NCBI GenBank assembly: GCA_032622095.1
Contig: CP136064.1
Coordinates: 262,425,863 to 262,489,862, forward strand
Source: Siphonodentalium dalli
Lineage: Eukaryota > Mollusca > Scaphopoda > Gadilida > Siphonodentaliidae
Reading direction: 5' to 3'
Length of the DNA: 64,000 bases
Each line of letters starts with the position of its first letter. The first letter of the stretch is position 1. Positions 22,001-61,906 of the stretch are shown here, piece after piece. The translations under genes and the position numbers were made by a program. The notes below the pieces were generated by a model. That model made no database searches. It was not told where the DNA came from and was given only the letters and a program-made list of their open reading frames with translations.

Positions 22001-22547
22001 GTTTATCTTGCGAGCTGCGTTGTGGTATATCTATATTGGCTGTTGTGGTCCCGAATTCATTTTCATCACCGGGTATAAAGTCGATGAGCTTGGCAGTTCG
22101 GGCGTTGAAATCGCCAAGCATAAGGATGTTATCACTAAGCCCTTTCACTGTAGCAAGAGAAGTCATTATTTAGTCAAAACATGTGTTTGAGCTATATTTA
22201 GAACCTTCAGGCGGAGCATAAACATTGCCTTCGAACCAGTCATTATATAATGTTTTGATTTTAAACCAGACGATATATTCATTTCCACAATTTTGTGATT
22301 CCTCAAATTTGTTCAAGTTTTCCCGAACAAGTACACAAATACCACCAGATCTATATCTCATTATTGATTGTCGGTTTTTCACAATTAGAACATTAAAACC
22401 AGGGATATCTATACTGTCTAGATCATCTGTTTTCGTCTCCTGAGGGCAGATTATGTCAAATTTCGAGACAAAATCGACAAATTCAGGGTCATCCAACCGG
22501 TTCATAATGCCACAGACATTGAGGGAACATATGTTTAACCTTCCTGA
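19041..22547 (-). pseudogene. LINE ORF2: endonuclease-reverse transcriptase, broken
   Basis: The endonuclease begins near RLNICSLNVCGI, followed by the catalytic-glutamate segment IICPQETK, GGICVLVREN, LMLGDFNAR, VVDYLI and SDVHCALSF, all expected EEP-nuclease motifs. The reverse transcriptase has NYRPITLVSC, QAGFRKNYSTTDHI, AFIDLSNAFDRVWW with the catalytic Asp, the GVRHGVNLSPILFS motif and LLYADD. After it come KYLGVTF and the C-terminal YGSEVWGCGN region. Frame changes occur near 22170, at about 21140-21240, directly after YADD near 20285, near 20005 and near 19540. The endonuclease nicks target DNA and the RT primes from the nick. No complete protein could be made from this copy. Confidence 0.88.
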
Positions 22548-23054
22548 AAACCTCTCATCCCCACACCCCTATATGCGTGTATTAGCGTCATATGGTGGTG
22601 GCGCACCGGCGGCATGGTCCCCGGAAACCCCATCCATACAGGGCGTGCCTGCAGTACTGATAACATGAGGGGGTGGGGAGGCCGGTGGCATTACATCCGT
22701 GTACCCTTGTAGCACACATAACAGGTGTGGATGTAACAGGTGGTGGGTGACTGGTGGCGTAGCCTCCAGTCGCCCCTGCCATACATGGTATGGGGTTGAG
22801 AGAACTTAGTCCACCCGATGCAGGGATTGTAACCGACTTCTTGCCTGTGGCCAGATCCATCGACATAGAGGGAGCAGCGCCGCCAACAAAATGCATATAA
22901 CCCGATGTCACGATCGAGGGCGTTGCGGGCCGTGAATACTCATACTCCATATCCACGGCTCGAACACCCACTACAGCGACGACAGATAGTGGTGTCGCCA
23001 CCGACATCCGGGAGCCTTGCGGTCCCCGGTCGTCGCTTGGCGCCACCCTACCCA
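22548..23054 (-). other. LINE inter-ORF linker
   Basis: GC-richer stretch between ORF1 and ORF2. Its frames are rich in Pro, Gly, Ala and Ser with no recognisable domain. It is probably a low-complexity C-terminal tail of ORF1 or a spacer. Confidence 0.5.
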
Positions 23055-24519
23055 TCACTGCTTGGCCCATGTGGTTGAACGGCGCAGGTCCCATCTGGGC
23101 TCCAGGAAAAGTGCCAGGGTGATAACATTTGGCAAATATGAGTTTGACATGGCAATCTCCCAACTCTGAAGCCCCCCGGACCCCACCCCGACCGGACCCC
23201 CAGTGGCATCACAAGCGTTGAACATGGCACACATGAGGTGTTCGCTAGTAGATGTCAGTGGTCGTCCCATCTGGGTGGGGGCAGGCGGCGCTTCAAAGCG
23301 AGGGAGGGTTGATGCCTTAAACATGTTCACAGGGAGTTTTTGTATGGTGCAGGTCTGCTTCTCAGGATACCAACGGTACAGAGGTGGCTCGTCTGGATAC
23401 GCCAGTTGACCGTTCACTATGAACTTATCACCAGAAACACGCGCGAAGTCATGCTTCCGATACTCTTGGATTTCCATAGGAAATTGTTCGAAGACCCTGT
23501 ATTGATTTGGCTGTTCCAGTTCTCTTATAGCCTTCCTAACAAGTTCCTTGTGTTTATAGTGCGAGAACCTGGCTATAAGCTGTATCGGCATGTTTCCGGC
23601 GTTCCGTCTATTCCCTAGCATATGCACGTTGCCAAATTCAATAGTCACACGTATGTTCAAAGTATCTGTTAGAAAGCCATTTAGAATGTCCTCAGTTGAC
23701 TTATCGCTGGTCTCCGTTTCCGCTATACCGGAGAAGATCAAGTTATATTTCATTGACCGTGTTTCGAGATCAATTACACGCTCATTTGACTTTATTTGGT
23801 TGCAGTGAAGCGTATCGAGTTCGTCTAACAGGGTTGAACCGCTTGGACATGAAATTGATCATTTGGCCCAAATCATTTTGTTTTCCTACACTGTCACAAA
23901 CGCCGCGTGAGTTGATATCAGTTTGTGCACGTATTTGCCTCATTTCAAGGTTAAGCGATCCAATGTGGTGTTCTACTGATTGTAATCGTGTTCCGAACGA
24001 TTTAACTTCGATGCGCATACTGTCCAGTGTATCAAATATCTTGTTCATTTGTTGGAGAATGTCAAGAATCTTATCGGATTGATTATCACTGCAGTCCGCT
24101 TGGGGGAATTCATCGAGCCGGGTGTTGGCACCGTTTCGTGTGGTTGTTATACATTTAGAGTTATTGTTCATAATTGCATTAGTGTTGATGGACCGATTTA
24201 CAAATAGTCTATGCTGATAGAATGTGTTGCTGCCTGGACCATAAATGTGGCTCACAGGGGGAGAGTCATTAAGTAATGCATGGGAGTTGCAAATAATTGA
24301 AGCGATCTCACCAATATTCGTCGGCGAATCGTCGATGATTTGCTCTTTCGGCGGTGGTGTTGTCAACTCGCAACTTGCTTTCCTCTTCAAAGGGTCGTTT
24401 TCAGATTCCATCTCCAACATATTCACAGCTCTGGTATCTTTGAATATCACAGCTCCTTTTAGGCGTGTAAAATTACTAATTTGTTCATTTAATTTCAAGA
24501 TGGATGTGGATTTTGACAA
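23055..24519 (-). pseudogene. LINE ORF1: coiled-coil/RRM RNA-binding protein, broken
   Basis: The upstream part (24519-23782) has a disordered N-terminus with a basic-proline patch (KRKASCELTTPPPK). A heptad-rich segment follows (SDKILDILQQMNKIFDTLDS through LQSVEHHIGSLNLEMRQIRA) that should form a coiled coil. After a frameshift near 23830, the next frame carries the RRM-like domain starting MKYNLIFSGIAETE with PIQLIARF and a basic C-terminal segment. This coiled coil plus RRM order is that of L1-type ORF1 proteins, which package LINE RNA as trimers. The 24519 start is a TTG; a true ATG may be MLEMESEND further in. Confidence 0.75.
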
Positions 24520-24751
24520 TAAATCGAAGAGCGATCACTAGATGCGGCCGGTAGCCAAGTCGACGCATGCGCCACCCCGACACAACGGAAACTCTTTGAT
24601 TTCTATACGATAGCGCAGAGCCACCGCATCCACTTCTGGTTTGTTAACTTTTTAGTAACTTGCTTATTCAAGTTATCTATATTGTTTAAACAACATATTC
24701 ACTTGTTTAAAATTCATATATAACTGCAGTTTTTAAACAATTTCATTTCAG

Positions 24752-24868
24752 CCTTCAATTGCGGGGATGGAACATTCAAATGTTCAACCAACGACCAGTG
24801 CTACACAAATGCCACCAAATGTAACAATATCAGCGAATGTCGTGACGGAAGTGACGAGGAAGGATGCC
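24752..24868 (+). CDS. LDL-receptor class A exon
   Basis: A 117-bp exon with acceptor TTTCATTTCAG and donor GTATGT, phase 1 on both sides. It encodes one complete LDLa module: FNCGDGTFKC, QCYTNATKC, then ECRDGSDEEGC. All six cysteines and the acidic calcium-binding CRDGSDEE segment are present, so the fold should be intact. LDLa modules bind ligands through a calcium cage in secreted or membrane proteins. The exon sits upstream of the leader exon at 25361, so it cannot follow that leader. In phase it could join leader 1 (18569) to the CTLD exon (26290). It could instead be an orphan of an upstream paralogue. Confidence 0.85.
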
Positions 24869-25305
24869 GTATGTAATAGTTACTATTAACCCATTAACAA
24901 GAGAAATTTTGCAAAATTATGATCACTACTCAATATACTTTATTGCTCAATCGCTACTTGACATATGATATGACATGTAACACAGACGAATCAAACAAAA
25001 AATAAACATCAAAGAGGCTGTCTGTAAAAAAACACCACTGAGAAGAACATGAGAAACGTCGTTCATGTATTTATTACTGATAGTTCTCCAATATCGAAAA
25101 TTTGCAGTTTGAACCCATCGTTATGTAAACAAAACCGTGTCAATAAACATCACTAATCATGTAGTAAGTTTAAATATTTTAATCTGATTAAGATTTTCAA
25201 AAAACAATTTATATACTTTGACCTTTTCCAATATTTTAATAAACTTTGGTATCTTATTGTTGGACTGATTGGACTTTTATCAGTAGTTCCACTCTAACAG
25301 TAATG

Positions 25306-25314
25306 TTTATATAA
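25306..25314 (+). promoter_or_regulatory. TATA-like box before leader exon 2
   Basis: TTTATATAA lies about 47 bp upstream of the ATG at 25361, a plausible distance for a short 5' UTR. The otherwise similar flank of leader 1 has TGTACATAG here, so only this copy keeps a TATA-like match. Confidence 0.3.
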
Positions 25315-25360
25315 CAATGGTTTTGAAACGCCAATTATCGTTATTGGAGAGTTACTAATA

Positions 25361-25442
25361 ATGAAAATAAGAAGGAAATTGAACCAGTTTTGCTTGTACT
25401 TATTGATGCTAGTTGTTGTACAGACTTGTATCACATTTAATG
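25361..25442 (+). CDS. Exon 1: signal peptide (leader 2)
   Basis: The ATG opens MKIRRKLNQFCLYLLMLVVV followed by QTCITFN, a classic signal peptide with a basic n-region and hydrophobic h-region. The donor is G|GTAAGA, leaving phase 1. Joining to the exon at 26290 restores a GAA codon and gives ...CITFNEQIFHDTKVAW, so the mature protein starts directly in the lectin domain. The exon is a paralogue of leader 1 at 18569, including its 5' flank. The start is chosen because it is the only ATG giving a leader and because both copies keep it. Confidence 0.72.
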
Positions 25443-26289
<847 letters not shown>

Positions 26290-26475
26290 AACAAATCTTT
26301 CATGACACTAAAGTCGCATGGATTGCTGCCAACAGAACATGCCACGACAAAGGAGGAAGATTGGCCGCCTTTCACACTGAACACGAGGTGATGCTTGCGG
26401 CGCGGACACTGGCTGACGGAGAGTCCGTGTGGATCGGAGGACTCAAAAACGACACTGGCTGGGAATGGCGGAGTG
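26290..26475 (+). CDS. Exon 2: C-type lectin domain 1, first half
   Basis: A 186-bp phase 1-1 exon with acceptor AAATACAG and donor G|GTGAGT. It encodes the N-terminal half of a CTLD: KVAWIAANRTCHDKGGRLAA, a T-E-H-E helix, then the WIGGLKND (WIGL-type) motif and WEWRSG. The exon stops at the classical CTLD intron position right after W.W..G. The first canonical cysteine (TCHD) is present and should pair with the last one (ALC) in exon 7. The direct continuation of this half is the exon at 38705, since the join gives WEWRSGSKYVGWDQGQP, but two WSC modules lie between them in the genome. Confidence 0.85.
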
Positions 26476-26540
26476 GTGAGTGTCCATCGTGCCATATGAG
26501 AAACTAGCTTCGGTTGTGCGCCTGCATGTGGGCTAAGTTA

Positions 26541-26935
26541 GCTAGTATTGTACCCTGACACATCTAATTACTCATTCTCTATAATAGAATTAGTCTAATG
26601 AACAAACTTATTACAATCGGATTGCCACACAAACGTGATATTTACTATCGCGCTCGGTATTATTGTTTTGTTCCCGCGAGAAATTACTCGTCATCAGCAC
26701 GTGGAGGAAATGGCAGTGCGGATGCGTGCGCATTCATTGTACCATGCGATTTTCGACATTAGCTTAATTTGCTTCATTCCTGCGAATAGCAGTCGAAGTT
26801 AGATATTATCCAATACTAATACATCTGATTGCTCATAATCTAATGAAACTAATGGACTTAAGTTTATTATAATCGTATTGCCACGCAGGTATGAGAGCGC
26901 CCGTCGCGTATTATTTTTAATATTATTGCGTTTAT
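26541..26935. repeat. Diverged tandem duplication within intron 2
   Basis: The segment 26541-26670 is related to 26796-26935. Both carry ACATCTRATT..CTCAT, then an AATCG(G)TATTGCCAC.CA stretch and a CGCG.TATTATT end. The copies are noticeably diverged and non-coding. Confidence 0.55.
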
Positions 26936-26991
26936 ATGAATATATAGACAGTACCATGAAAACCAATGCGCTTATCCGTCTTTGTTTTCAG

Positions 26992-27125
26992 ACAAGAGCA
27001 AATTGTACGATCGAGTTGGCTGCTTTACCGAGAAGGTACTCAAACCACTTCCAGTCTACGATATGATGAACAGTTTTGGAAAATGCAAAAGTTATTGTAC
27101 TAATTATACTTACATGGGCATCAAG
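26992..27125 (+). CDS. Exon 3: WSC domain A, first half
   Basis: A 134-bp exon, phase 1 to 0, with acceptor TTTGTTTTCAG and donor AAG|GTGAGT. It encodes KSKLYDRVGCFTEKVLKPLP, a spacer, KCKSYC and YTYMGIK. This matches the start of a WSC domain (GCY/F.D..., C...C, Y.Y.G.Q/K), a cysteine-rich, putative carbohydrate-binding module first described in yeast stress sensors and found in polycystin-1 and Kremen. The phase-0 exit fits either WSC second-half exon (30384 or 36976). The nearest, 30384, is taken as its partner. Confidence 0.8.
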
Positions 27126-27514
27126 GTGAGTGCACATACACACTGTCTTTGACAAATACATCACGTGTAGTTTTCTTAATCTTTTCAACCATGGACAGGG
27201 ATGTGGTGACATGACACTTGGGGGTCTGAGTGTCCCACTCAAACTTATTATGTAAGGTAATATGATGCCATGTAATTTTAGGACACATATAGCTCGGATT
27301 TATCCTTTATGTTGGTAAAGCAAAGCGATGATGTGAAGAACATTTACAGCTATTTACTTCACAGTTTCATTTCAAGTAGGGAGTTAACGACATCCAGCAG
27401 TTTAATTATGTTGGTAAAGATTTTTAGCACATGGGAAATTCATGTCTGCCATAACATCAGTTGGAAATATGACTCACTTTTGGATCGTTATCCCTTATTT
27501 GAAAGAACTATTCT

Positions 27515-27890
27515 TTCGGCCAATTTGACCCCATAGCTGGGTGGCCCGCCCCAAATACCCAATATAAACTTCGCCACCCTTCAACCCCACACAGTAGGGC
27601 CATACTGATAGTAGGACCTGTTATGGACCATTTCCGAGGATAGTTCGGATTTTTGACCCCATGGTTTGCCTGCCCCGATGGTGGGGCGAAAATGGCACCA
27701 AGCATTCTAGAATCGTTCGGATATCGGTAAAATTTGTCCCACGGCACCGGGGGGGGGGTGGTGAAGGGCGATGTTGTTTCTGGTGGATATGCGGGCATGC
27801 AAGCCACACTTGTCTTCAAATTTGCCGAATTCGGAACAGTTCTCGTAAATGGTCCATTGACCAGCCCACACCGCATGTGTCACCCTGGAA
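27515..27890. repeat. GC-rich repeat-like block in intron 3
   Basis: A compositionally distinct ~375-bp block with two related segments, each with TTGACCCCAT followed by GGGTGG.CCGCCCC or TGGTTTGCCTGCCCCGATGG. A poly-G tract lies at 27750. Frames on both strands are long only because of composition. It is probably a dispersed repeat insertion. Confidence 0.4.
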
Positions 27891-28619
27891 CTACCACGCG
27901 CATATCTTTTTTACACTCTTTACAAATATAATATTATTTTATTAGAAAATCGGCTTTGATCATAAGATAAGGCATTTTCCTTGATTAAGTGAAAAGCATA
28001 TGAATTGTGGGAACGTCAAATTATATGTCTACCAACAATTCGCCGATGAGCAGAGTCCATGAAATTTAAAGTTCAGTAATGTCAAATTACATTGTTTTGT
28101 ATGGATGTTTGTATCTGATTTCAGTTGTCCGTATGTATTTTGAGTGCTCTTCATTTTACATTTATAGTACGGACATGTAGCAATAATTGTTAGTGTAATA
28201 TATTGTTTTCTAATCAAGAAGCGTGCTATATTATTACGACGATGATCCATATATTAAGCATGCGCGAAGTAGTGAGGACTGAATTATGTTTTGAAAGACT
28301 ATACTCCGATCTTGGTAACGCAGACAAGCGACCTTAATTCAAGACGTCTAATTCTTGATATTTCATAACGAATGTTCTCACAATATGTGTGTGTTTCATT
28401 CTGAAATATAGTACATAAATATATGATTAATGTGACATAAACTTTAAGAACTATACATACATTGGCACTACTTATAAGTCAACTTTCGATACTATATGAC
28501 ACGAACATTCCTTAAAATGTCACTGTCTAAAGACCAATACTATGTACAAAATAGCATTCTTTCACGAGTGAAGTTTATATATCTATGACAACCTATCTGA
28601 AGATCATGAGATGGAACTT

Positions 28620-29945
28620 GATTAAAAACAATGATAATTATTTTCATCTAGAAAGCAAATACCCATACATGATATATTTGAGAATTGTCCTGCCGTGCAT
28701 GTTGGTCGATGAACAATTGGGTTGAGGTGAGTTAAAAACCATAATATATTTAACCTCTCAAACGTATAAAACAATCATTATTTTTGTCTTCTCTTAATTG
28801 CTTTTCATATGCTGTATTATATAGGTCAATTTAACATGTTTACTTACCTGCCAATCAGTGATCTTTTTCTTCGATTGTAATTTCTAGTGTATTAAGCAAT
28901 TTTTGTTTTTGTAAAGAAATACCGAGCCATTATGAAACTATTTTAAATTATATTTGTATTGGCTATCGCAAGACAACCAAAAGCGCTTTCTTGATTGAGT
29001 TGACGTTTCGCAACGTATTGCCAACTTTTCCTGATAACTCAACATGGATTTTCTCAAACATATCGGAAAGTTCATTTTGAAAGTTGGTACAAGCTATTAT
29101 TGTGACTCAATATTTCAGAAGCGTCCACTCGTTGGGAATTATAACCACATTTACTATACTGTTATACGTAAACACTATTTGAAATTTCGCTATTTTCCGG
29201 CACCAAGAACTTTTGTAAGATATAACTTTTTCAACAGTGCAGTTGATATATCCACGATTTCATTTCTGAAGGTCAAGAGAGGAGATTTAGTTGAATTAAA
29301 TATTCCTTGATTCAAGGTTTTTCAGAATTATTTTCATTTGGAGAGACAGATAATGTTCAAATCAAGCCTGTTGTTCAATATAACTGGTCTCAGATGAGTG
29401 TTAGGTCACATGTCAGTTTCCAAGTATCCAGCTGAATAGGTATATCTAATAATGTGGCTTATTTCCAGTTGATATCTTCCTGTTTGAGTGCAATAGGCTG
29501 CATACCAACAGTTGTTTTCATTGGGCTGAAATATTTGTGACTGCTTTTTTTTTTTTTTTTCATGTATATGTTGTATGATGTTATAGCATGCACTTAAAAC
29601 TTCAACCCAGTATTATGACACAAATAAAGCTTCCCTTGATAAAACCAAGACAATAAGCTATTTGGTGATTGGATTGCTATTTTAAATTATTAATTAGTTC
29701 AGCAGTTCTTTGTACATAAAGGGTCAATAATTTAAACATGCAAGTGTATGGAACTCGATTGTGTTTGTCTTCTTTTATATTTGCTCAGATTTTATATACA
29801 AAGATGAGGATAGGTAAAAGTCTATATTGTTCACCAGATAATCAATATAAATTCTTTGTTGAAGATATCATTCAATTTTGCCTTGATTTATGCAAAACGT
29901 TCGTCTGGTCCTTAACAGTTTTAAAAAATAAGTCCATATTAATTA
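28620..29945. repeat. Dispersed intronic repeat, copy A
   Basis: Diverged but extended similarity to 43440-44420: shared blocks around GTTGGTCRATGAACAATTGG, TTATTGTGACTCAATATTT, CAATAAGCTATTTGGTGATT and AATTCTTTGTTGAA. It has no conserved frame (copy B is full of stops), so the ~88-residue frame at 29044 is not considered a gene. Confidence 0.7.
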
Positions 29946-30383
29946 ATCATTAGTACATTTGACCATTCTATCTCAATAGTTTGTAACTAGATCTCAATGA
30001 AAGTATATATGTAGATATATTGATAAATTGATCCACTGTTTTATTATTATATCCATTAATGTGTTTTGTTTCGACTTATCAATCCTTGAAATTCCAACAC
30101 CGACTATTTGCCACATGGGGTGTGAACCAAGTCACTCCCATCTTATGTCTGTATTGCCAGAAATGTGGAAACTCCCTAATTGAATGCGATGTAAACTAAT
30201 ATACCCACAGTGTTTGAATTTCTATTGTAGATAGTGCCATAATAATGTATAGGGAAGTCCTTCGGTTGTTGTGAGCCGATGTCTCCAAAACTAATATTTT
30301 GTTCTCAATGGACGCATCTATGTGGGGTAATTTTTTCTGAGATTACAAGTCCTGCACATATAGTCCGCCTTTATGTTCAACAG

Positions 30384-30498
30384 GGTGGGCGAATAAAGTG
30401 TGTTTGTCCAGACGCACAACATATTAAACCGATGTTCCGAGGAACACGATGTGATGTTTCAGGCAACAAAGAATATTCGGTCTCATTGACTAAAAGTG
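30384..30498 (+). CDS. Exon 4: WSC domain A, second half (degenerate)
   Basis: A 115-bp exon, phase 0 to 1, with acceptor TTATGTTCAACAG and a perfect donor G|GTGAGTAT. It encodes GGRIKCVCPDAQHIKPMF, RGTRCDVSGNKEYS and SVSLTKS. The KCVC pair, RC and SGN positions line up with the second half of WSC-B (SCYC, AC..PC, CGG). Two expected cysteines (C in NIPC and the CGG cysteine) are absent, so this WSC has six instead of eight. Assignment rests on identical phases, the C.C motif and location between the WSC halves. An EGF-like fragment is the alternative reading. Confidence 0.62.
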
Positions 30499-32817
30499 GT
30501 GAGTATATATTTCAACTTTACACCTATATCAGCTATTATCTAGATGAAACGTCCTTGATTAATATATATACATGCCACAATTCCTACGTTGAAATTGGAC
30601 GGTGAATGTAGGTCCAAGCGCCGTAAACAGCCCGACACGCACACTTAGTACGTGCGGGTTGTTTTATGGGTACCGTCAACGATCTAGGTACGACATAAGA
30701 CGGCTAGAAGAATACCTGTATAGCAGCTGAGTAATGTGGAAAGTAATATATACATTTAAGTTCCATTCCGCAGACTTCTTCAACACATTACTGTTGTCCA
30801 TATATGATTTCAAGCAAGTTGGCTTGTGTGTCAAATGGGTTTCAATAAATAATATTTTGCTGAATTTGTGTTTTACCGAAACCAATTTTTTATGAAAATA
30901 TTATTAGTGGTTATGGATGATTCACTGCTTCATATATACGTACTATTACTTTAATCCAATGATTATGTAAGTTTCTATAGAGACAATGCCTCTCAAATAA
31001 CTCTGGCTATTGAATATTGCTCAAGCAACAGTAAGCTTATGCTATCTTACTATTATTTTCATAAAAGCAGTCTGTTATATTCATACGAAAATCAGCGCCG
31101 TGTAAGCACTGTCATTGAAACAGGAAAAAGAAGATAGATAATGTGAAAGTTATTAGCTCTATGGAAATTTGGAGGAAGTTGAACGAGACACTGTGTGACA
31201 TAATTGCACTGGAATTCAGGCGTGTATCACATGACTCGAACACACATATATGCAGGTCGCAACGAGCCGCACAACCATGGTGCAGTTGGGTCGCTTCAGG
31301 TGACTGAGTTGTGGTCTATGCGAAGTGAGAGTATGACTAAATCATGTAAACGATAATTTGTTCACGTACACATGAAGCAATGAACACATCACATCGAGCA
31401 GTGCTTTCACACATTATGATATATCTACATGGGTGAAGTACAATATCTATATGGATTCATTCAGTCTGCAAACGGGTGACCCGATTAAGACGTCTATGCA
31501 CTAAAATATGTCGATTGGTCACCACTGGGTGGTGTATTGTGGTCTATCGCACTATGCACCTTGCCGACTGAACCCATCTTTTCTGTTGCAGACTATATGA
31601 TACATTGAAATGATGACTGCGGTCACACCAAAATCACGAACACACCCTTTGCACGCCGGTGGTGATTTGCCAATCTCGATAGGGGCCGCGTGATTATGTA
31701 TGTGAAGACTACCTTGTATGCACACGGACCCGTAGTTGCGAATTTAAGCTCAAACTGGGGATCTCATTAGAAAAGCAACACAGTCGACTCTTTGTTTATA
31801 TTATATCGAGGGATTCGCATAATATGGGCCCATTCTATATGGAATCTATCAACCGGGTATGCCAAGTTTTCGCTTTGAGCAGACGATTCCGAGGTTCAAA
31901 TCAAACGTCGTGAACAAGATCGACATATTCCATACGAAATTTTGAGCAAAGGTTAGATTAGCTGGTTATTGCTTGTTTAATGTATTGATGCGTGATAAAA
32001 CTCTTCACACGCATGCCTTCATTCATAAATTATCCTGGTTGAACTTTGTCCTGTATATGTATTGTTTTAGAATTATAATCAAAATATTGCACAACGCAGA
32101 GAGGACATAATTCAGCGTAGAGATAAGTTTATACCTAAAATTACCTCATTATGTTCAGCTATACCAGTCATTCTAGTGCGAATTTTAAAGGCGTGGTCCT
32201 CTACAAGTCTGATATTTAAAATCACACAGTACGCAATTGTTATATCAGATGGTTCTGAATCTAGGCTCAGAGAGGCGTATTAAACGCTGGATGTCCTTGA
32301 TCAATTGTCGGGATTGCGTGTCAAACCAGAGAAATGTCAGACGTCCTGGATTTTCTTCATATGTTACTCTTCAAGGAATTCGCTTCAACACACGTTTGGA
32401 ACAATGAAGCAAAATTATGAATCAAAATTAGCACAGATGTTGACTCCTCTTGGCAACAATCATTAGAACACTTATTCTTCCAAAATTGACCCACTTTCTC
32501 ATCACTTCAATCACTTGCGCTCAGTATCTAAATATTGATTATGTTATATTGAAATCTTAAGCGTGACCGAATTAAACGCCGACAGTTATCCCAAAACCAC
32601 GAAACAGGTGGATTGAAAATGGTAGATATAGAACTGTTCAATAAGTCGATGAAAATAACATGGATACGACGATTATACTAAAATATGCAAAACGGTTATC
32701 ACTGGGTGAACTTCCGCTTGACAGTGACAACCTCTTTTTAACTTATGAACACGAATACCCGAACACATACGTTACTATAGAAACTAAATACAGTCATTTA
32801 CACTTTATAATCTGCAG
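30499..32817 (+). other. Intron 4, no other feature
   Basis: AT-rich sequence with a GC hairpin near 30620-30665 (GCCCGACACGCAC paired with GTGCGGGT). No exon or known repeat is recognised. Confidence 0.45.
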
Positions 32818-32939
32818 AAAGAGGAAAAGACTCTTATCGAGGCTGTTACATCGTCGACGATGCAAATTTTACTATAGATGACAATTCCCTGCAAAAATGC
32901 CAGATGATGTGTGGGTCTTATCCCTTCATCGGTCTTCAG
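32818..32939 (+). CDS. Exon 5: WSC domain B, first half
   Basis: A 122-bp exon, phase 1 to 0, with acceptor TTATAATCTGCAG and donor CAG|GTAGGT. It encodes RGKDSYRGCYIVDDANFTI, then LQKCQMMCGSYPFIGLQ. This is an excellent match to the first half of WSC: RGCY.VDD, C...C spacing, and the terminal Y.FIGLQ. It is out of frame with longer spurious ORFs around it and easy to miss. Joined to 36976 it forms a complete eight-cysteine WSC domain. Confidence 0.85.
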
Positions 32940-33109
32940 GTAGGTCACTTACCTTTTTAAATGTACCATATAACTGTGAATGTATTAATAGCGACCACCT
33001 CTCGTTTCGTACTCGGTATTCCGGGTGTTTTATAGGCGAACGCAGGATAAACCGGACAGTGACTGCACAATGCACCCGTTTCCAACGCAACTTTACAATT
33101 CAATAATTT

Positions 33110-33690
33110 TAGCTCATTTTGACGCAATACAAGCTTGAGCTTTTGCCATGTATTTGTGTCCGCCGTCCGTGTACACGTTCTTGTGTCCGTGCGTCAGTCA
33201 ACACTTTCAATCGCCACACCCTGCAGGCCACATTCCTTATCCGATCATCGCCAAACTTCAAACTGATCTTCGGGGCGACCGCTACATGGGAGCCATCACA
33301 TATGTCCGAAATTCAATAATCGACGTGGCCGCCAGCGACCATTTTGAATTTCACATTCCAACTCAACGGCAAGCGCATATATATTGGAGAAATGTCTTAA
33401 ACATTTACGGGCATGTTTATGTTCACATCTAAATGGAAGCTCTCTGATTTGAACGATGTTCTATAAATCATGGCGACCGGCAGCCATCTTGGAATTCACT
33501 CTGTTTATGACTCTATTCGACGGCACACCCCATATATATGCCACATTCGTTATCCGATCGTAGCAAAACTACATATCTCCGGGGTGGCATCTAGACGGGA
33601 TCTGTTCAATTTCTTCCGAATATCGTTGGAAAATATGGCCGCCAGCAACCATCTTGGATTTAACATTTTAATCAATTGACACACTGCAGG
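33110..33690. repeat. Dispersed repeat with internal ~180-bp periodicity
   Basis: Begins TTAGCTCATTTTGACGC... and GAGCTTTTGCCATG, then CCGTCCGTG-type sequence and two to three diverged units with CCACATTC.TTATCCGATC and ATGGCCGCCAGCRACCAT. From memory, this kind of GAGCTTTTGCCAT/CCGTCCG repeat is common in mollusc and other marine invertebrate genomes. Frames inside are not genes. Confidence 0.5.
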
Positions 33691-35560
33691 TCGCATTTCT
33701 TGGAAAACTATTTGAAAATAAGAACAGTTTCATATGTGCCCAATACAACCCCTTCACTAACACATTTTGACATTCCTTTTGCTTTGTCATTCCATTGACT
33801 GCTCATGCAGAACATTAACGCCTATTCAAAGTTAATGTAAAGTGTTATTATCGGTATATCCTGCTCAGTAAGACGAGTATTATCCAAACTTGCGCCGTAG
33901 ATATCGGGGCAAAACCATTTTATATTAAATTACTGAGGTCCCCAACTTCTCGCACGGGCTTGGAACATCCTTGTCGGTTGGTACCTCAATGGCATACGTG
34001 GTGGGAAATATGGTTTACTGAAAAATGGCTTCAAAGAGACTTATTTCAATAACTCTGTGTTGCTCATGGCATGAAACTTCTGAAAGGTGTCAATCCAAAT
34101 GAATGTGGTTAGACCGAATGGCCTGGGCATGCAGCGGGTATATTATGACCCGAAGATGACACGCATGTTATCGTGGACTCAATGTCACGTTTGGACCACA
34201 TTTACAGCCATTAACAACTTGTGTGAAGAATGGAACAATGGAGTGACTGCCCACTCTGCGTCAGTATTTTGCAACTTTTGAAAAGCACCCCTCTTCCATT
34301 CAATTCCTTCTCAGTCGGCCATATCACAACTCACAGGACGGTCCATCGCACAGGTTGTGTCTTAGATACCACTAAATATTTGCGTAAAGTTTCGTCAAAA
34401 TCGATCCAGTATCTCATAAAATATTACCAAATATATTAGGGGGGGCTTTCTTTGTTTGAGGTGTTTATATAACTGATCATATTTTGAACTCCCACCATTT
34501 AATTCGTTTAACTGTTTTCACGATATATTAAAACAAATCTTTCTTTATTTGGGTAATGTTATATCCTAAAATATTCAATATGATGCTCTTTCTCAAAATT
34601 AGTTGATTTCTCAGTAACGGCTTCGTCATTATTACAGTGTCAACAAAGAAATCAAAGATGATCATCAGTCTAATTATTTTTGAAGTCTGCCTAAATGTGC
34701 ATTCTCAGAAAACAATTATATTTGTTTTCTTCGAACATCGTCAGAATGCTTGTGAAGTGCCAAAAATGCGAGGTGATCCAGTTCACTTAGGAAGTACAAT
34801 ATTTCATTATTATGAAGTATTTACTGTCCGATTTTCACGGTTGATGGGTCAAACCATACATAATTATTTGTAAAATGCAATTTTTGCTATTGATTAATAT
34901 ATAATTTTAGCTGCGCATTGTAGTTGTATTTTTGGGAGTGGACATTATGCCAGGTTATGCAATCCCTGTCGTTGATAGCAGTATCGTAGCAACCAGTGAA
35001 GTACATATATAAATGGCCAATGCAGTCTATTAATTAGAAATTGTAAATATGTATGTAGGGTTCCAATTTACAACGGGTACTGGTGGATTGCTGATTGTGG
35101 TATTTACAATGTATATATGTGACAACCCACATATATATATGTAGGAGACGCAAACAAAAACTCAACAATTGAAACATGAAACCCCTATAATATCATTGAA
35201 AAATCCATTACACATTTTCTTATCTGTCACTGGTGGCTAAAAGATAATAGTCCAAGCGGTAATCACTTTCATTGTATACCTGCGCGCGTGATATTATAAC
35301 GGGAAACTGTGAATTACTATTGAAAACTGATTATTTGTTTTGATTAAAATTATATTATTGACAAATGTTACCAATAAATAACCCAATAGACGTCAAATAA
35401 AGACGAAACTAAAAGCGGCTATATTTCTTTGCGCGTGTAGCGTAGTACTGACGTATAGTGGTGAACCGTCTGAGCCAACACAAGACGTGTATACAGTTTG
35501 CGTGTTCCCGGCAGAGCTGATGTTAAAAAGGCATAAAGCTTTTTTTTATGTGATATACAA
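33691..35560 (+). other. Intron 5 remainder, no exon recognised
   Basis: A frame at 34637-34873 starts with a hydrophobic leader-like segment (MIISLIIFEVCLNVHS) but has no donor, domain or paralogue that I can support. The rest is AT-rich. Confidence 0.4.
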
Positions 35561-35707
35561 GATCTTCAACTCATTATGTTGGGATATAAGATTTTATGAA
35601 ACTCGTTTGATAAAGTTGATTCGCAACTCGTCTACGACTCGTTATGAATCAAATTTATCAAACTCGTCTCATAAAATCTTATATCCCAACATAACTCGTT
35701 GGAGATC
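35561..35707. mobile_element. Foldback element (147 bp)
   Basis: Arms of about 55 bp, outer GATCTTCAACTCATTATGTT versus the complement of AACATAACTCGTTGGAGATC, separated by a short loop of AACTCGT repeats. Confidence 0.8.
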
Positions 35708-36975
35708 CTCAATATATAACACGAACAGATGGTGGTGTTATGGTGTCAAATTAATGGCGCGTCTTTAAGCTATAACAGATACGATGCTCTGACTGAAAAA
35801 TCAAACACATGTTTAAACAATGTAAGAGATTGACTTTTAAAAAATCTTGTAAAAAAAATATTAATGAAAACCACAAAACGAACTTAAGGGTGGATATAGT
35901 TCTAAATTAATTAAAGACACATTTTGTACTTGTTCGGGTTGTGTGTAACTGACAAGTGAGTATTCAGGCGCTCTGCCAATTGGAGGAAATAGCATTCTAC
36001 TAAAATCACCGAAAATCTCAAGCAAATCGACCGTACCACACAATAGAAAACACAGGCCCCTGTGGAAAATTACTGCAAGTCGCAGACACGTCTAGTTTCT
36101 GGAATTCGTTTGATGAATAACGTTGCAAATATCGAGCACAACCACACCGGATGAAATAAAAGAGGTATCGGTGGCTTCCGAATGGCTTGTAGAAGATATG
36201 TGAGCATTTATAGGTTATGAAATCGCGTTTAATTACACGTTCGCGACAATTATTTGCTCGAAAATATTGATTTCATAACTAGGTAAAATGCCTCTCGGCG
36301 GATAGGGAGATTGACGAGCCGATTTTTTCTGTAGAACTCAGTAGATTCCGATATCAAATCTCGACTTCTCTTCGTTCGATTTCGCCGAGTTATATGTCAA
36401 ATGAAAGGGAATTTTATTGCCAATAAGATATTTTGGCTCCAATTACCGATTTCTAGAATTTGTAGGGTTTTGATTGTTGGTGTGGTTTTAGCCAATATCG
36501 ATCATTGGAACCTTTACACTGGTATTGTCTATATTGGTATTTTAGTAATTCCCCCCAGAGGCCTGTGATAGAAAACATCGTCCGAACTACTCTCAATTGT
36601 AAATATTTACAATTCGGGACGCAACTATCGCCGATAAACTGACGATTTCGCCGTCGAGACTCAATAAATTTAATTAATATATATGAAAGGTGGAGTAATA
36701 TTCGTTAAAATAACTGCCGGAGTGTTTCACATCACTTTAATATTTGTTCTTAGTCAGAGACCGTTGCCACCAGTATAGGCCATTCATCCGACCAGATATG
36801 ACAAAACAACAACCGATAGAAAGAACACAAATTCTAGTGACGTACACGTAGTACTCTATTCGGCATTCTCATACAAGTAATATATAGTTCATTTTGGGAT
36901 AGGTACATCTTCGTGATGTACAATGCTGTCCAATGGCAGCAAATGCGGGTAACCTATTACTTTGTCTGCATGCAG

Positions 36976-37111
36976 GGACAGTCGTGCTACTGCTATACGC
37001 ATTTCGATCTGAGACAAGAAGATGAACATGCCTGCAACATTCCTTGCCCCGGAGATCCTGGTCAAGCATGTGGTGGTAAAAACAACACACTGGCAATCTA
37101 CAGCCGAAACA
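36976..37111 (+). CDS. Exon 6: WSC domain B, second half
   Basis: A 136-bp exon, phase 0 to 1, with acceptor TGTCTGCATGCAG and donor ACA|GTAAGT. It encodes GQSCYCYTHFDL, HACNIPCPGDPGQACGGKNN and TLAIYSRN. This is a textbook WSC C-terminal half: C.C, C...CPGD....CGG and the final L.IY. Together with exon 5 it holds all eight consensus cysteines. The phase-1 exit matches the second half of CTLD-1 at 38705. Confidence 0.88.
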
Positions 37112-37407
37112 GTAAGTAGATCGTTTATATTGGGCATTGTGAGATCCATGTTTGTAGGACCGACATGGTGTTGGAGCTCTCTTACCGTTTTTTTTTTGGA
37201 TTGATTTTTAATTTTTAATAACAAATGATATAACAACAAAATTATGAACAATTATATGATAAGTATATTACAGGAGAAGCATAACCATGGTTGGTCGTCC
37301 TCCTGCCGCCCCTGAATGATATATAAATATAAGGATGGCGGATGAATTCAAAGAAGATGTATTCACGGTACTCTAGATACAGCACCAATATATTTTATTG
37401 TTGTCAG

Positions 37408-37617
37408 AAGATTCAATTTCAAGCCCAAATCAACCGCAGTTGGAAATTTCAGACGTCAATTATGTTGAGTGTTACGATGGTTCCGATATGTTGAGTTTCC
37501 AACAAAATTCTAGGATAAAATAAGTGGATCTCATACCAAGATTATGACATGTTACTGGCTTGAGTCAAATTGTGGGGCTGATATGGACATCAGGTGGAAA
37601 TTGCCAGTCATAGGATA
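37408..37617 (+). pseudogene. CUB-like exon relic
   Basis: After an acceptor TTGTTGTCAG, a phase-1 frame reads LEISDVNYVECYDGSDML, resembling the central YVEVYDGSD signature of CUB domains, then stops at TAA. Shifting frame gives DKISGSHTKIMTCYW and ADMDIRWKLP, resembling a CUB C-terminus. No donor follows. The frameshift and stop suggest a dead exon. The CUB assignment is by eye and tentative. Confidence 0.35.
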
Positions 37618-38704
37618 ATTTTATGTTGAAAATTTTGAAATAACGAAGTTCGATGTATCAGTCAGAAGACGCCAACAGACGGGCGTGCATGTTTGGTCTA
37701 CAAGTGGGTCCGCATTTGACTCCCATAAAAAACACCTATCCACATCCCTAATCCGCCAGTCTGTGAAATATCATTCGGGATATAAAATGATATAGATAGA
37801 TATATATATTAGCGTAAATGCGCTTCTTTTCCGCACAAACGAGTGTCGTTGGTACATGTCCAAGACCAGTCAGGTCTAGGATCATACAGTATAGTAACTA
37901 TTACTGGTGGAAGAATATTCTTTTATCTGATATGCTTGAATATTTCAGCGTCGACTGTATTTACATTTTGTATAGCAAGACACATTGAAAATGGGGGGGG
38001 GGGTTGGAGTAATAGGTAATGTGCATCGTTCGGCACATATTACAATAAGTAAATGGATGGTAATGTGATTTGTTAATCTGGTCAAGTTGCTTTAGAGGCC
38101 AACAGTTTCCACGTGTATCGAAGTGATTTCCAGTTGAAATAAACCATATATCTGGGCAGTACCCCCTCCAGACATCAACCTGTCAACTGACGTCGATACA
38201 CAAACGTCCAACAAATAAACCATTGATATTCCAAGGAACACAACTAGGTTTGTTTCCCTCCGGTGTTTGGCACTCTGTGGCCATCATACTTACATATATT
38301 CCATGTCATAAACAACAGAAAAGGTACGACTTCATGGTAGCGGAAACATTGCGGTTGTTCTAAAGAAAATCCAATATGCAAACACGATTATTATATATGG
38401 TGCTCGGATTTTTGGTTATTTTTAAGTGATTGTCAGGGTCAGACATCACTGCTAACTTGTTCTCGGGATTTATATGCCCGATTTAGCCGGTGTTCATGAG
38501 TCAGATTATGTACACATTGTTCATAAGAATATATACTCCAGAGCAAAGTAGCATTTAAACCGAATCCGATTAAGAGAAATGGAATATTTCGATTGTGTAT
38601 TAAAAATGTGTCTCGAATTCATGGGCTGAACTGAAGTTGTCATCCCTCCCATTATCTAAACCGCTTGATTGCGTCTCAGCACATATTTTGTCTTGTCTTT
38701 ACAG

Positions 38705-38874
38705 GATCAAAATATGTTGGCTGGGATCAAGGACAGCCATTAGCAGCAGCCAACTGTGCATGTGTGTCTGCTTTTGATGACTATAACTCTATATATTGGA
38801 GGGCATCGGTATGTGGTGACGAAGGGCCAGCGTTGTGCTCTAACTATAATATTGATTACTCAGGAAATCCACAG
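38705..38874 (+). CDS. Exon 7: C-type lectin domain 1, second half
   Basis: A 170-bp exon, phase 1 to 0, with acceptor TGTCTTTACAG and donor CAG|GTAAAT. It encodes SKYVGWDQGQPLAAANCACV, then YWRASVCGDEGPALC. This is the long-loop region and last strands of a CTLD, with three canonical cysteines (NC, SVC, ALC). The QPD/EPN position reads QPL and the WND position reads WRA, so canonical calcium-dependent sugar binding is not expected. It completes CTLD-1 begun in exon 2. In the genome the two WSC domains intervene. Confidence 0.85.
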
Positions 38875-41445
38875 GTAAATATAATTAGAAACTAATTATC
38901 TAATTAATACTCTATATAACTGCGTCTTTGTGAACAATTTAAATCAACACAAAGACAAGCGAGATATGCCGCGTGTTTACAATATCCCGGGAAACGTCAA
39001 TAACTAATTCACGAACTGTTAAATCAACATATCCTCGAGAAATTACCCACATAATCGACCACTAATCAAGTGAAACAGATACACAACGCGATTATTTGAT
39101 TATGAAATAGGCAGATAAGGATTCATATCCGTTATTGCGTTTTATTTAGTGAAAACAGCGTACACCTGAAAAGTCGTGATTTTATTATGTATGTCATTGT
39201 TCGCACATAATCTGCTTAGAATCGCCGATAATTAGTCGATAATTATGAGTCGATAAATATGACTAACATTCTCTCATTTCAGCACATTATCGACTCAAAA
39301 TTAGGTCATTCTAAGTAGAATGTCTACCTAAACCAAGTTCAATTATAGGCAGATAATGTGCGGACTTTTGGGAGACCAGGCACATTAAATTGTATACTTC
39401 TTTACAAAACTTGCTGTATATCCAGGTCATCCACTACATTTGCAGATGACATCCCTCTCCTTTCTTTGACTTCTTGATATTTGTCGTTCTTATAGTCGTA
39501 GATGCAGTTTTTCCATATAAAGTATGGTCATTAGTAAGCAATTCCAAAAAAAAACATAGCTCAGTGCTTTACATAGAATGTTTTGGTGACATGTTATAGT
39601 ATGCAGCAGGTGTGGTTTCCTATACCACACACATTGGTTTGACTATTGTATGCTACATGAAAGCCTTGCTCGCCCGTGCGATTGGCTATCCCTGTGTGGC
39701 TAACATACAATGAGTGTACCACTGGAGGGAGATCGTTAATTCTTACTGGTATGATCACGCCCCTCTTTTGCAAATGATTTGTCATACATATCTATACTGT
39801 TACCTATATTACATATATGTGCATATAGATATCACTACTTGTAAATTATTATTATCAGAGGCATCATTTCGTGAGGTAATTATGATTATTTTCACTCTGT
39901 ACACAATGGTTCGTCAAAACAGTTGGCCAAATCATAATTTCGCGATAATTAGGTTGATCCGGGTATACAGAGCTGGGAAATCCAACATGTATAATGTAGA
40001 AAAATAATGGGATCTACTACTTTGCAACTCTAAAACCCAATAAATCATAAGAAACTGTTCGAGTGGTACAAATTAGTACAAATACCAAATATCATCGTCA
40101 AATGTTTTAAAAGATGATAGTTTTTGTGTTGTCCAGTGGGAGCGGGGTATATTGTATTGAAATTAACCATTATAGTTTGTGACGCTGGGGAGAACTTCAA
40201 GCGACATTCCCATTGTATTGACCGATTTAACATGCATATTATGCTTTATTCATTATTATACATTCCTTGTCGATTCAAGAATAGTAGGGTGTCTATTAAT
40301 TACATTTGGTTATCGTGTATGCATGCGTGTACTGTACTATGTAGTCTTATCATAACAAGTGCTTGTTTAAAATGTAGCCGCTGTTGTGTAGTGCCGAAAA
40401 CAGGAACCTTTTGTTTTAGGTAAGTGATGTGCATTCATTGGAAAATACACGTAGAACTTTGTGTATCTCGCGCCCGCGCAAAAAAGGCTTCATATTCTGG
40501 TCTTGTATGGTTATGGTATAACTGTCGGCAAATTTATTTATTTAATTTTATTTCTAATACCCACATATTTGGTACATACTCCGTTTGTCAAGAGCATTAA
40601 TACTTCACAGATACATTGTGCAACTGACAACTGAGTGTTATCTTGAACATTGTAGCATTCGAATGATATGGTCCGGGAATTCGAACTAGGCCTCTGAAAA
40701 CTGTTAGACAATATTTATAGGCATTCTAATTCCCCTAATCAATCCAAAAATCATAACGATTGGACGAATTTATATATTCATATATAGGAGCAAGTTCGGT
40801 AGATCATGGTTGTTGATGATGTCCATGAGAGGTGGCGCGTTGACTGATTTGTGTTGATATCTTCTGATGACAACGTCCGACATTTCTCTCCCGTTTTCTA
40901 AATTAAATGGCTCGTATTATCGATATAATTGGTGACGTCACAAAATAAAATGTTTGGCTTAAAGTACGCCATTTTGTCATTATTGGTAAATTTATTGTTG
41001 CTGTTTACCAAAAATGGACAAACTCTATCAGAGTTAGTTCTACAGCTCACACTTCTGCCATGCAGAGAAAAACTAGTTAGCTGAATCGTATGCTATGAGC
41101 TTAAAATTTTGCCATTATAGAGTTGATCTGATCAAGGTTTTTATAATAATCATAGGATATTACAATTTAGATCAAACTATTTTTCTTTCGAAAGAACCTT
41201 ATCTGCAAAAAACATGTGAAGATTTCGTTAGTGGAACAGGACAATTACCTTTTCCTCACAAAGCGTTGTTAAAGTTTGGAAACCGACTTCGTAGTTGAGA
41301 TCGAAGATTTGTCTCCGTTCATGGTATACGTGGGCTACTTGTGTGCACTGTAACAGTTCACCTACTCTCTTGTAACCGGGACAAAACGTTGCGATCTGTA
41401 TTCTGCATGTTGATGATGATTAACGACACGTGTATTTTGTTCTAG
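38875..41445 (+). other. Intron 7, foldback and CTLD-like trace
   Basis: Holds a foldback at 39202-39362. The frame 41095-41298 reads KTCEDFVSGTGQLPFPHKAL before a stop, weakly recalling a CTLD first half (C...G.L), but it has no WIG motif or donor. The remainder shows no feature. Confidence 0.4.
39202..39362. repeat. Inverted-repeat element (161 bp)
   Basis: The ends CGCACATAATCTGC and GCAGATAATGTGCG are exact inverses. Internal copies of the same word (GCACATTAT) and TTAGTCGATAATTATGAGTC-type inverted segments add further folding. A small MITE is likely. Confidence 0.65.
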
Positions 41446-41626
41446 AATGAATTTAGTGTTGATGGAAAGCAAAACTGGACGAGCTCTATCGGAGTATGCT
41501 CAGATAAAGGTTCCGGTTGGATATTAGATGAATCTGGTATGGACTTGTCAACGAATTCAAGCGAGTTCTTTTCAGACTGTTATTGGATCGGCCTACATAG
41601 AGATTACAGCTATATATGGACTAATG
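41446..41626 (+). CDS. Exon 8: C-type lectin domain 2, first half
   Basis: A 181-bp exon, phase 0 to 1, with acceptor TTTTGTTCTAG and donor G|GTGAGA. It encodes NEFSVDGKQNWTSSIGVCSD, a Gly-Trp and acidic stretch, then FFSDCYWIGLHRDYSYIWTNG. It has the helix cysteine (GVC), the WIGL motif and the W.W..G-equivalent end at the same intron position as CTLD-1. An extra cysteine precedes WIGL. It follows exon 7 in phase 0, so the two lectin domains abut with a short linker. Confidence 0.83.
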
Positions 41627-44420: not shown

Positions 44421-44739
44421 ACAATACCACGCGGGGTGAGTAGTTGGATCTCTGGACTAATATGGGTGTATTTGGTTTATATCATGTTTATTATTCTTGA
44501 TTTAGCTGTTACGACGTAGTTCTACTGTTTGAACAAACATTGTAACTATAAGTACCATTGCCATTTTTACATCAACAGTAGAACGTTATACCGCAATATG
44601 TGATATGTATATACACCATAACATAAGCAATGATAAATCATAAAACAAAACAATTACTGTTTATCATTAATCGTTTCCACGCCTGCATACTATTCAACAA
44701 TGTTCTATACTTTTCATTCAAGGAAAAAATTGGCATTGA

Positions 44740-44915
44740 CAACTTTGGCACTTCTCTCTGTGTCATAACCGGATTATGTTCCTATCTCTATCAAGATGGT
44801 CAATTTTTGACCACCACTAGCTATGACAATGACGCGCAGTGCATTCGCAGCAACCAAACATATCTAAATATTCTGTTGCATTGGTGTATGGAGAGTAGAT
44901 CTTAGTTTGCACATA
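44740..44915 (+). pseudogene. CTLD second-half-like relic
   Basis: The frame reads YQDGQFLTTTSYDNDAQC, then NILLHWCMESRS and a stop; one base over, VC follows. The spacing (DG...C...WC.....C) resembles the second half of a CTLD such as exon 9. There is no clean acceptor or donor, and the last cysteine needs a frameshift. I read it as a dead duplicate exon, with low certainty. Confidence 0.3.
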
Positions 44916-46200: not shown

Positions 46201-46217
46201 CTATATATATATATATA
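44916..46217 (+). other. Intron 8 portion with short duplications
   Basis: A ~60-bp tandem duplication lies at about 45543-45661 (TGGTCAGATTTGTAAATGTT...). The segment 45050-45540 has loosely repeated ~160-bp units (GGATACC..., GTTCGT.CATT...). An (AT)n run lies at 46169-46217 next to the Helitron-like array. Confidence 0.5.
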
Positions 46218-46900
46218 CTAGAAGGTGACCCGACTTCGTCCGGGCTATTAAAAAACCAAATTTCAAGTCGATTGCTCCACCCGTTTCCTTGATCTGGTCT
46301 GCGCATGCGCGAAGCTGGCGTCGCACGTGCTCGGCGACCCGATAAAAGTCGTATCCGGGGCAAGATACATTCACATACCAAATTTCAAGTCGATAGCTAC
46401 ACCCGTTTCCGAGATATATAGCCCAATGTCATTTGCGGATACCTCGGCCGGTGATGAGTTAACGCGACACAGTCAAATGCATCGGCAGGGTGAGAGTTAA
46501 CGTAATCTAACTTTATGACCTCTGACGACGTCATAGAAATTACGCATTGATTTTATCCTGATAAAAGCATCGTACCACTTGTACCTAATAATTGAGGCAG
46601 ATAACTAAAACGGATACATACATATTATATATCGTTGGAAAGATGAAGCCACACAGATTCTAACCGTGCAAATTATATGACTGGCAATTTATTATTCGCG
46701 CTATATCGAATCGATTTGTGAGCACCGAACTGAAATATATTAGCGCAAAAACGGCGTAAAAATAGATTTGACCTCCGCACGTGAAAAGTTGACCTCGCAC
46801 GGACAAATAAATATGCCTATGTTCGTCTCCGGCCGAAAATACATCCAAATACCAAGTTTCATCGAAATTGGCTTAGTCGTTTTCGAGTCCATCGATTTCA

Positions 46901-46936
<36 letters not shown>

Positions 46937-46959
46937 GATCTTTCAAAATATATAATAGA
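46218..46959 (-). mobile_element. Helitron-like unit 1 of 3
   Basis: Read on the minus strand it starts TCTATTATATATTTTGAAAG and ends with a hairpin (CCCGGACGAAGTCGGG) 8 nt before CTAG at 46218. TC...hairpin-CTAG termini inside an AT target are the established Helitron signature. It has no ORF, so it is non-autonomous. It is more diverged in the middle than units 2 and 3 and carries a (CA)n run near its 5' end. Confidence 0.7.
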
Positions 46960-46973
46960 TATATATATATATA

Positions 46974-47649
46974 CTAGAAGGTGACCCGACTTCGTCCGGG
47001 CTATTCAAAAACCAAATTTCAAGTCGATTGCTCCACCCGTTTCCTAGATCTGGTCTGCGCATGCGCGAAGCTGGTGTCGCACGTGCTCGGCGACCCGATA
47101 AAATTCGTATCCGGGGCAAGATACATTCACATACCAAATTTCAAGTCGATAGCTACACCCGTTTTCGAGATATATAGTCCAATGTCATTTGCGGATACCT
47201 CGGCCGGTGATGAGTTAACGCGACATCGGCCTCTTAAGAGTTAACGCGAACACGTCACGATATGTTGATGGCGTAATATATTTTTTTTACGCAATGATTT
47301 TCGATGAGCGAAGCATGAACTTGTGTTCTTCCCGATAATTAAGGTAGAAACTTTAAACGTACACAGGCGTGTCATACATCATTGGAAAGGTGACACGCCA
47401 CAGATTCTAACCGTGCAAATTATATGACTGGCAATTTATTATTCGCGCTATATCGAATCGATTTGTGAGCACCGAACTGAAATATATTAGCGCAAAACGG
47501 CGTAAAAACAGATTTGACCTCGGCACGTGAAAAGTTGACCTCGGATCTGAAAATCAATATGCCAATGTTCGTCTCCGGCCGAAAATACATCCAAATACCA
47601 AGTTTCATCGAAATTGGCTTAGTCGTTTTCGAGTCCATCGATTTCAAAC

Positions 47650-47684
<35 letters not shown>

Positions 47685-47707
47685 GATCTTTCAAAATATA
47701 TAATAGA
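46974..47707 (-). mobile_element. Helitron-like unit 2 of 3
   Basis: Same termini and orientation as unit 1, separated from it only by (TA)n. Nearly identical to unit 3 (differences in (CA)n length and rare substitutions), so the tandem duplication is recent. Confidence 0.72.
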
Positions 47708-47713
47708 TATATA

Positions 47714-48579: not shown

Positions 48580-48732
48580 GACTACCGGTGACATTGCATG
48601 TAACAGAACAAACGTCCCTTGACGATGAAGCAAACTGTCTTATACTGCGAAGAAATTCAACTGGTGACTTTGGTATTCATGACGCACCATGCACTGAACA
48701 TCACACCTTTCTATGTGAACATCACATTAAAG
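48580..48732 (+). CDS. Exon 9: C-type lectin domain 2, second half
   Basis: A 153-bp phase 1-1 exon with acceptor TTTTTACTGCACAG and donor AAAG|GTGAGC. It encodes LPVTLHVTEQTSLDDEANC, ILRRNSTGDFGIHDAPC and TEHHTFLCEHHIK. The three C-terminal CTLD cysteines are present (ANC, APC, FLC), ending in the typical FLCE. No EPN/QPD or WND motif is present, so this lectin fold probably binds protein or non-canonical ligands. There is one N-glycosylation sequon (NST). Confidence 0.85.
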
Positions 48733-51071: not shown

Positions 51072-51140
51072 GAACAGACAGCACTCACGATGACCGCAAC
51101 GAATATCAGACCACAACATCCGCTTTGCCAGGGTCATACG
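51072..51140 (+). CDS. Exon 10: Ser/Thr-rich stalk
   Basis: A 69-bp phase 1-1 exon with acceptor GTTATTCACAG and a strong donor ACG|GTAAGT. It encodes TDSTHDDRNEYQTTTSALPG plus SY, a short hydrophilic Thr/Ser-rich segment suited to a membrane-proximal, possibly O-glycosylated stalk. It is the best-preserved of three related exon copies (49626, 50462, 51072). It links CTLD-2 to the transmembrane exon in phase. Confidence 0.62.
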
Positions 51141-61791: not shown

Positions 61792-61906
61792 GCACGAGTA
61801 CAATTGGGACAAATAGTTCTAAGGACGGTAGTGCTGACACTACTGTCATTATTGTCGGTATCGTAGTTGGCCTCCTATTGGTAGCAGCTATTTGTTCAGC
61901 GTGCAT
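61792..61906 (+). CDS. Exon 11: transmembrane segment
   Basis: A 115-bp exon, phase 1 to 2, with acceptor TTATATTTACAG and donor GCAT|GTAAGT. It encodes a short Ser/Thr/Asn-rich extracellular linker (TSTIGTNSSKDGSADTT) with an NSS sequon. A strong single-pass helix follows, VIIVGIVVGLLLVAAICSAC, with a GxxxG-like small-residue face and juxtamembrane cysteines that could be palmitoylated. It follows the stalk in phase 1 and fixes the type-I topology with the N-terminal signal peptide. The cytoplasmic exon, entering in phase 2, was not identified before the window ends. Confidence 0.75.

Follow-up and report, generated by a model that had tools for sequence, protein, structure and literature searches.

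We analyzed a 64,000-nucleotide window of the genome of the scaphopod Siphonodentalium dalli (contig CP136064.1, positions 262,425,863 to 262,489,862 of the forward strand), which appears to contain a gene in which two WSC domains lie between the two halves of a C-type lectin domain (CTLD). Eleven plus-strand exons within 25361-61906 can be spliced into one open frame (487 codons); their phases match and their splice sites are AG/GT (Table 1). In order, they encode a signal peptide, the first half of the first lectin domain (CTLD1), two WSC domains (WSC1 and WSC2), the second half of CTLD1, a second lectin domain (CTLD2), a stalk, and a transmembrane segment, and the product is predicted to be a type I membrane receptor. 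Searched as a whole against Pfam, the model gave two WSC stretches (49.2 bits together) and two Lectin_C stretches (42.9 bits), all above the family cut-offs. Exon 1 was the only start exon within 24400-26289 that satisfied the criteria set for such exons. The model is partial, since exon 11 ends in phase 2 and the gene must continue past it; the tail was not found. Exon 4 is the weakest assignment of the model. This region had been singled out in an earlier reading of the sequence by a model (the original prediction), and the ends given there for exons 2 and 7 and the four exons in compatible phases between them were confirmed; these four have phases 1-0, 0-1, 1-0, and 0-1 and AG/GT sites.

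Table 1 Exons of the partial receptor gene model in the S. dalli window
Exon	Position	Strand	Encoded segment	Phases	Evidence
1	25361..25442	+	initiation codon, then a signal-peptide-like segment	donor phase 1	
2	26290..26475	+	CTLD1 first half, through WIGG and WEWRS(G)	1-1	Lectin_C 28.0 bits alone; first-half pattern match
3	26992..27125	+	WSC1 first half	1-0	resembles exon 5 (score reached by 0/500 shuffles)
4	30384..30498	+	WSC1 second half, shortened, without last two WSC cysteines	0-1	no likeness to exon 6
5	32818..32939	+	WSC2 first half	1-0	exons 5+6, WSC 44.3 bits
6	36976..37111	+	WSC2 second half	0-1	exons 5+6, WSC 44.3 bits
7	38705..38874	+	CTLD1 second half	1-0	exons 2+7, Lectin_C 42.4 bits; strict second-half pattern match
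8	41446..41626	+	CTLD2 first half	0-1	exons 8+9, Lectin_C 25.3 bits; first-half pattern match
9	48580..48732	+	CTLD2 second half	1-1	exons 8+9, Lectin_C 25.3 bits; strict second-half pattern match
10	51072..51140	+	stalk	1-1	splice sites and open frame only
11	61792..61906	+	stalk and transmembrane segment	1-2	hydrophobic run judged by eye

The split lectin domain

Exons 2 and 7, joined directly, match Lectin_C (PF00059) at 42.4 bits over profile positions 2-106 of 107, with a Pfam cut-off of 22.6. A search of solved structures found CTLDs of LY75, PLA2R, and MRC1, with alignments of the joined sequence that run through the junction. Exon 2 already passes the Lectin_C cut-off by itself and exon 7 alone has no match. 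When five shuffles of exon 7 were placed behind exon 2, they scored 27.9, 29.3, 29.5, 30.1, and 36.0 bits, and exon 7 therefore appears to add modestly to the lectin signal, above all five controls. The four conserved cysteines and the WIGL-type motif of the domain are present, with one cysteine and WIGG in exon 2 and the strict three-cysteine pattern in exon 7, which has one extra cysteine. Exon 8 likewise encodes one cysteine beyond the CTLD pattern, and the two (38705-41626) may pair with one another. At the calcium site, QPL and WRA were found by eye in place of EPN/QPD and WND, the motifs of calcium-dependent sugar binding according to an excerpt of PMC7618208. CTLD1 is therefore unlikely to bind sugar in the canonical manner and is a CTLD but not a canonical calcium-dependent lectin.

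The original prediction had called the joined sequence a seamless canonical CTLD, which overstates the fit at the junction. There, the second W of WEW is nine residues from the next W, whereas this spacing is 11 in all 11 distinct CTLDs whose solved-chain alignments show both residues (five in LY75, four in PLA2R, and two in MRC1, counted by eye), so that a direct join of exons 2 and 7 is two residues short. A shortening of this kind at the border would be expected if the loop were permanently interrupted and its constraint relaxed; natural variation would produce it as well.

The insert is located directly after W.W..G and downstream of the WIGL motif, which would place it at the start of the long loop region. 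This region is variable and bears the canonical binding site (excerpt of PMC7618208), and introns placed downstream of WIGL have been reported in other CTLD genes (excerpt of PMC514892). The internal intron of CTLD2 is in the same place and the same phase 1, and CTLD2 therefore serves as an uninterrupted comparison within the same gene. The likeness between the two domains is weak, with scores reached by 0/500 shuffles for the first halves, 14/500 for the second halves, and 4/500 for the whole domains. The nearest solved chain for CTLD2 was KLRG1 (28.9 bits, residues 3-73).

The WSC pair

Eight cysteines are the norm for a WSC domain. WSC2 has all eight and, at 44.3 bits against a cut-off of 27.8 (PF01822), is a full WSC domain. 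WSC1 is WSC-derived through its first half, which resembles that of WSC2 and, when exon 3 is joined to exon 6, gives a WSC match of 45.2 bits; in the full model, Pfam counts WSC1 as one of the two WSC stretches. Its second half, exon 4, has no similarity to exon 6 (score reached by 421/500 shuffles). No solved relative of the WSC pair was found at E up to 0.1. WSC is named a carbohydrate-binding domain in an excerpt of PMC10140915, and the receptor would display the pair on a lectin-fold scaffold. In intron 6, a plus-strand open reading frame (ORF) at 37377-37520 reads YVECYDGSD beside an acceptor-like site and by eye is like the start of a CUB or WSC domain. It was rejected as a third WSC remnant, having no Pfam match and scores against exons 3 and 5 that were reached by 481/500 and 297/500 shuffles.

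Search for further lectin halves

Patterns for the two halves of a CTLD, composed after the exons were known and such that a diverged half could escape them, were run over both strands of the window. The first-half pattern matched twice on the plus strand, in exons 2 and 8, never on the minus strand, and 0 times in 20 shuffled windows. The strict second-half pattern matched on the plus strand only in exon 7 (two overlapping matches) and exon 9, and in one place on the minus strand; in 20 shuffles it matched 0.3 times on average and at most once. Read along the plus strand, the order is first half, WSC, WSC, second half, first half, second half. A loose second-half pattern gave 39 plus-strand and 12 minus-strand matches, whereas 20 mononucleotide shuffles had a mean of 8.3 and a maximum of 14. 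Its additional matches resemble chance; some fall in intron 2 (26669) and intron 6 (38350-38377 and 38607). The ORFs at 26639 and 38341 that contain such matches had no Pfam match in a check of 3 of the 9 ORFs of 26400-27010 and 4 of the 30 of 37100-38720, the ORF at 38604 being outside it; such negatives are weak for halves, as exons 7, 8, and 9 singly give no match either. The original prediction had named missed halves in 26476-26991 and 37112-38704, completing two separate lectin domains, as evidence that would speak against it, and this arrangement is unsupported by the strict patterns and by Pfam on these ORFs. Further CTLD halves are likely absent from introns 2 and 6.

Three other sequences were noted in the introns. 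Intron 2 matches itself (26535-26631 with 26796-26887, 99 columns, 69% identity), which might be a noncoding repeat. The plus-strand ORF at 38341-38496 in intron 6 encodes seven cysteines in 52 residues. In intron 8, a plus-strand ORF at 44627-44905 with no Pfam match is weakly like exon 9 (6/500 shuffles) and unlike exon 7 (409/500), and is perhaps a decayed lectin exon.

Proposed origin and splicing of the insert

The reading we favor, with a probability of about 0.58, is that a WSC-WSC block was inserted in CTLD1, is constitutively spliced in, and is closed around by the CTLD core. The sequence shows the exons, their phases, the domain halves, and the order of these; the place of the block in the fold, its constitutive splicing, the folding of the lectin domain around it, and ligand binding by the WSC pair are what we infer. 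A class 1-1 block would have entered the phase 1 intron within the first CTLD, near the start of the long loop, and would now be included in the mRNA constitutively. The core of the domain would still close around the insert, exon 2 providing its first half and exon 7 its second. The WSC pair would then project from the CTLD face that is usual for ligand binding and could be the recognition element, with CTLD1 as its scaffold, because CTLD1 has lost the usual calcium-site residues.

The phases and splice sites are consistent with such an insertion. WSC1, WSC2, and the unit of exons 7 and 8 are each class 1-1, that is, flanked on both sides by phase 1 introns, an arrangement that generally marks extracellular modules spread by shuffling (excerpt of PMC8001218). 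The intron between exons 2 and 3 is the shortest of the ten (516 bp), whereas skipping from exon 2 to exon 7 would bypass four acceptors across 12.2 kb. By simple scores, exon 3 has the best splice sites of the set (donor 9/9, acceptor 15/18 pyrimidines), and those of exons 3 to 6 score on par with the remaining exons of the model. Because of the short intron, the splice sites of exon 3, and the two residues missing from the direct join, constitutive inclusion of the WSC exons is favored, with toggling a less likely alternative.

Several observations weigh against this reading. Exon 2 joined to exon 9 has a higher Lectin_C score than exon 2 joined to exon 7 (48.2 versus 42.4 bits), exon 8 joined to exon 7 gave no Pfam match, and the best single-domain solved chain also scores higher for exons 2 and 9 (38.2 versus 32.6 bits). 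The cysteine count is odd in both lectin domains (five in CTLD1 and five in CTLD2). WSC1 is degenerate, with six of the eight cysteines and no Pfam match alone at E up to 1, so that of the two WSC domains in the original prediction, WSC2 stands in full and WSC1 in part. A transmembrane-like hydrophobic ORF on the plus strand of intron 6 (37813-38016) could in principle end another transcript; its only Pfam match is sub-threshold. Finally, no homologues were found at E up to 0.01 or by a shared-word search.

The WSC block could instead be a cassette, with regulated skipping that joins exons 2 and 7 into an intact lectin in some tissues and inclusion in others, which we consider unlikely. Every junction concerned is of phase 1 and keeps the reading frame, modules that are symmetrical and 3n long lend themselves to exon skipping (excerpt of PMC8001218), and the skipped form reaches the lectin score given above. 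However, compatible phases are no argument for a splicing switch because class 1-1 exon shuffling yields them without any skipping, the skipped form falls two residues below the spacing in all 11 comparison CTLDs, and the splice sites of exons 3 to 6 resemble those of other exons. Between the insert and the toggling cassette offered by the original prediction, the double WSC insert is thus the better supported, and no positive evidence for a toggle was found.

It is quite improbable that the WSC exons lie outside this mRNA, as a nested gene, decayed exons, or a misassembly, leaving a transcript of exons 1-2-7-8-9 or 1-2-9. The degenerate WSC1, the transmembrane-like ORF in intron 6, and the pairing of exons 2 and 9, the top-scoring of the four lectin pairs tried, would fit this explanation. 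Opposed to it are the open frames, intact splice sites, and matching phases of these exons and the eight cysteines of WSC2. In addition, no start exon satisfying the signal-like criteria was found in introns 2 and 6, and the transmembrane-like ORF matches no family above the cut-off.

We give only a slim chance to a nested arrangement, in which exons 2 and 9 form an outer lectin domain whose loop holds the WSC pair and, beside it, exons 7 and 8 as a lectin domain in circularly permuted order, and as slim a chance to its origin by class 1-1 shuffling with an intra-domain intron as module boundary: the higher scores of exons 2 and 9, the even cysteine counts that result (four and six), and the class 1-1 character of exons 7 and 8 favor it, but summed over both domains the colinear pairing is preferred by Pfam (42.4+25.3 versus 48.2 and no match) and by the best solved chains of any kind (65.8+28.9 versus 51.8+23.6, but with LY75 totals that add several CTLDs), single-domain chains tie (32.6+28.9 versus 38.2+23.6), and neither kind of sum is a true test of half pairing.

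Other features of the window

Just upstream of exon 1, the plus strand has an exon of class 1-1 for an LDL-receptor class A domain (24752-24868, 31.2 bits). This exon may be part of an upstream gene or, because its phase fits exon 2, an alternative start of the receptor gene. Long minus-strand ORFs that by eye resemble a LINE-type retroelement lie just upstream of it (19041-24534). Two nearly identical ORFs about 3.4 kb apart (5715-6989 and 9165-10409) suggest a local duplication. An inverted repeat at 35553-35715 has 80-base arms, 81% complementary, with 3-base spacing, and at 46210-48430 a short element starting TAGAAGGTGACCCGACTTCGTCCGGGC occurs in three copies (by eye) with CA-rich stretches in between.

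Comparison with known systems

The mannose-receptor group (LY75, PLA2R, and MRC1), which provided the top solved sequences for exons 2 and 7, likewise consists of receptors with several CTLDs. Those of their CTLDs that align across the point of insertion have no insert there and a W-to-W spacing of 11 rather than the 9 of CTLD1, and to our knowledge these receptors have no WSC domain. In the Polycystin-1/REJ family, human PKD1 combines WSC and C-type lectin domains, and the proteins of this family are large and often contain REJ, GPS, and PLAT domains (excerpt of PMC1934368). The WSC and lectin domains are set apart from each other there. None of REJ, GPS, and PLAT was reported by Pfam in the partial model, whose 3′ end lies beyond exon 11. 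Bivalve CTLD proteins are comparable by domain content, WSC being among the domains combined with CTLDs in an excerpt of PMC10140915.

Domain insertion as such is common, occurring in 20% of multidomain proteins according to an excerpt of PMC13114784, whose text contains neither "lectin" nor "WSC". Among the matches listed in the open-access literature, none describes a WSC domain or WSC pair inside a CTLD, and the claim of the original prediction that no described receptor has this layout agrees with these matches, with the qualification that bivalve CTLD proteins with WSC are mentioned. Exon-shuffling modules are described as bounded by introns at domain borders (excerpt of PMC8001218); in the S. 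dalli gene, if our reading is true, shuffling has brought a pair of modules into the binding loop of another domain. Because the gene also encodes an uninterrupted sister domain, a module pair placed in this way would be a clean case for how intra-domain phase 1 introns let receptors gain binding surfaces and for whether entire domains can be accommodated in the long loop of a CTLD. The integrin alpha I domain is a known instance of one extracellular domain set in a loop of another. A WSC pair acting as the recognition element on a CTLD scaffold would be comparable in principle to this inserted I domain, although the domains are unrelated and in the S. dalli gene two modules are set in a lectin fold.

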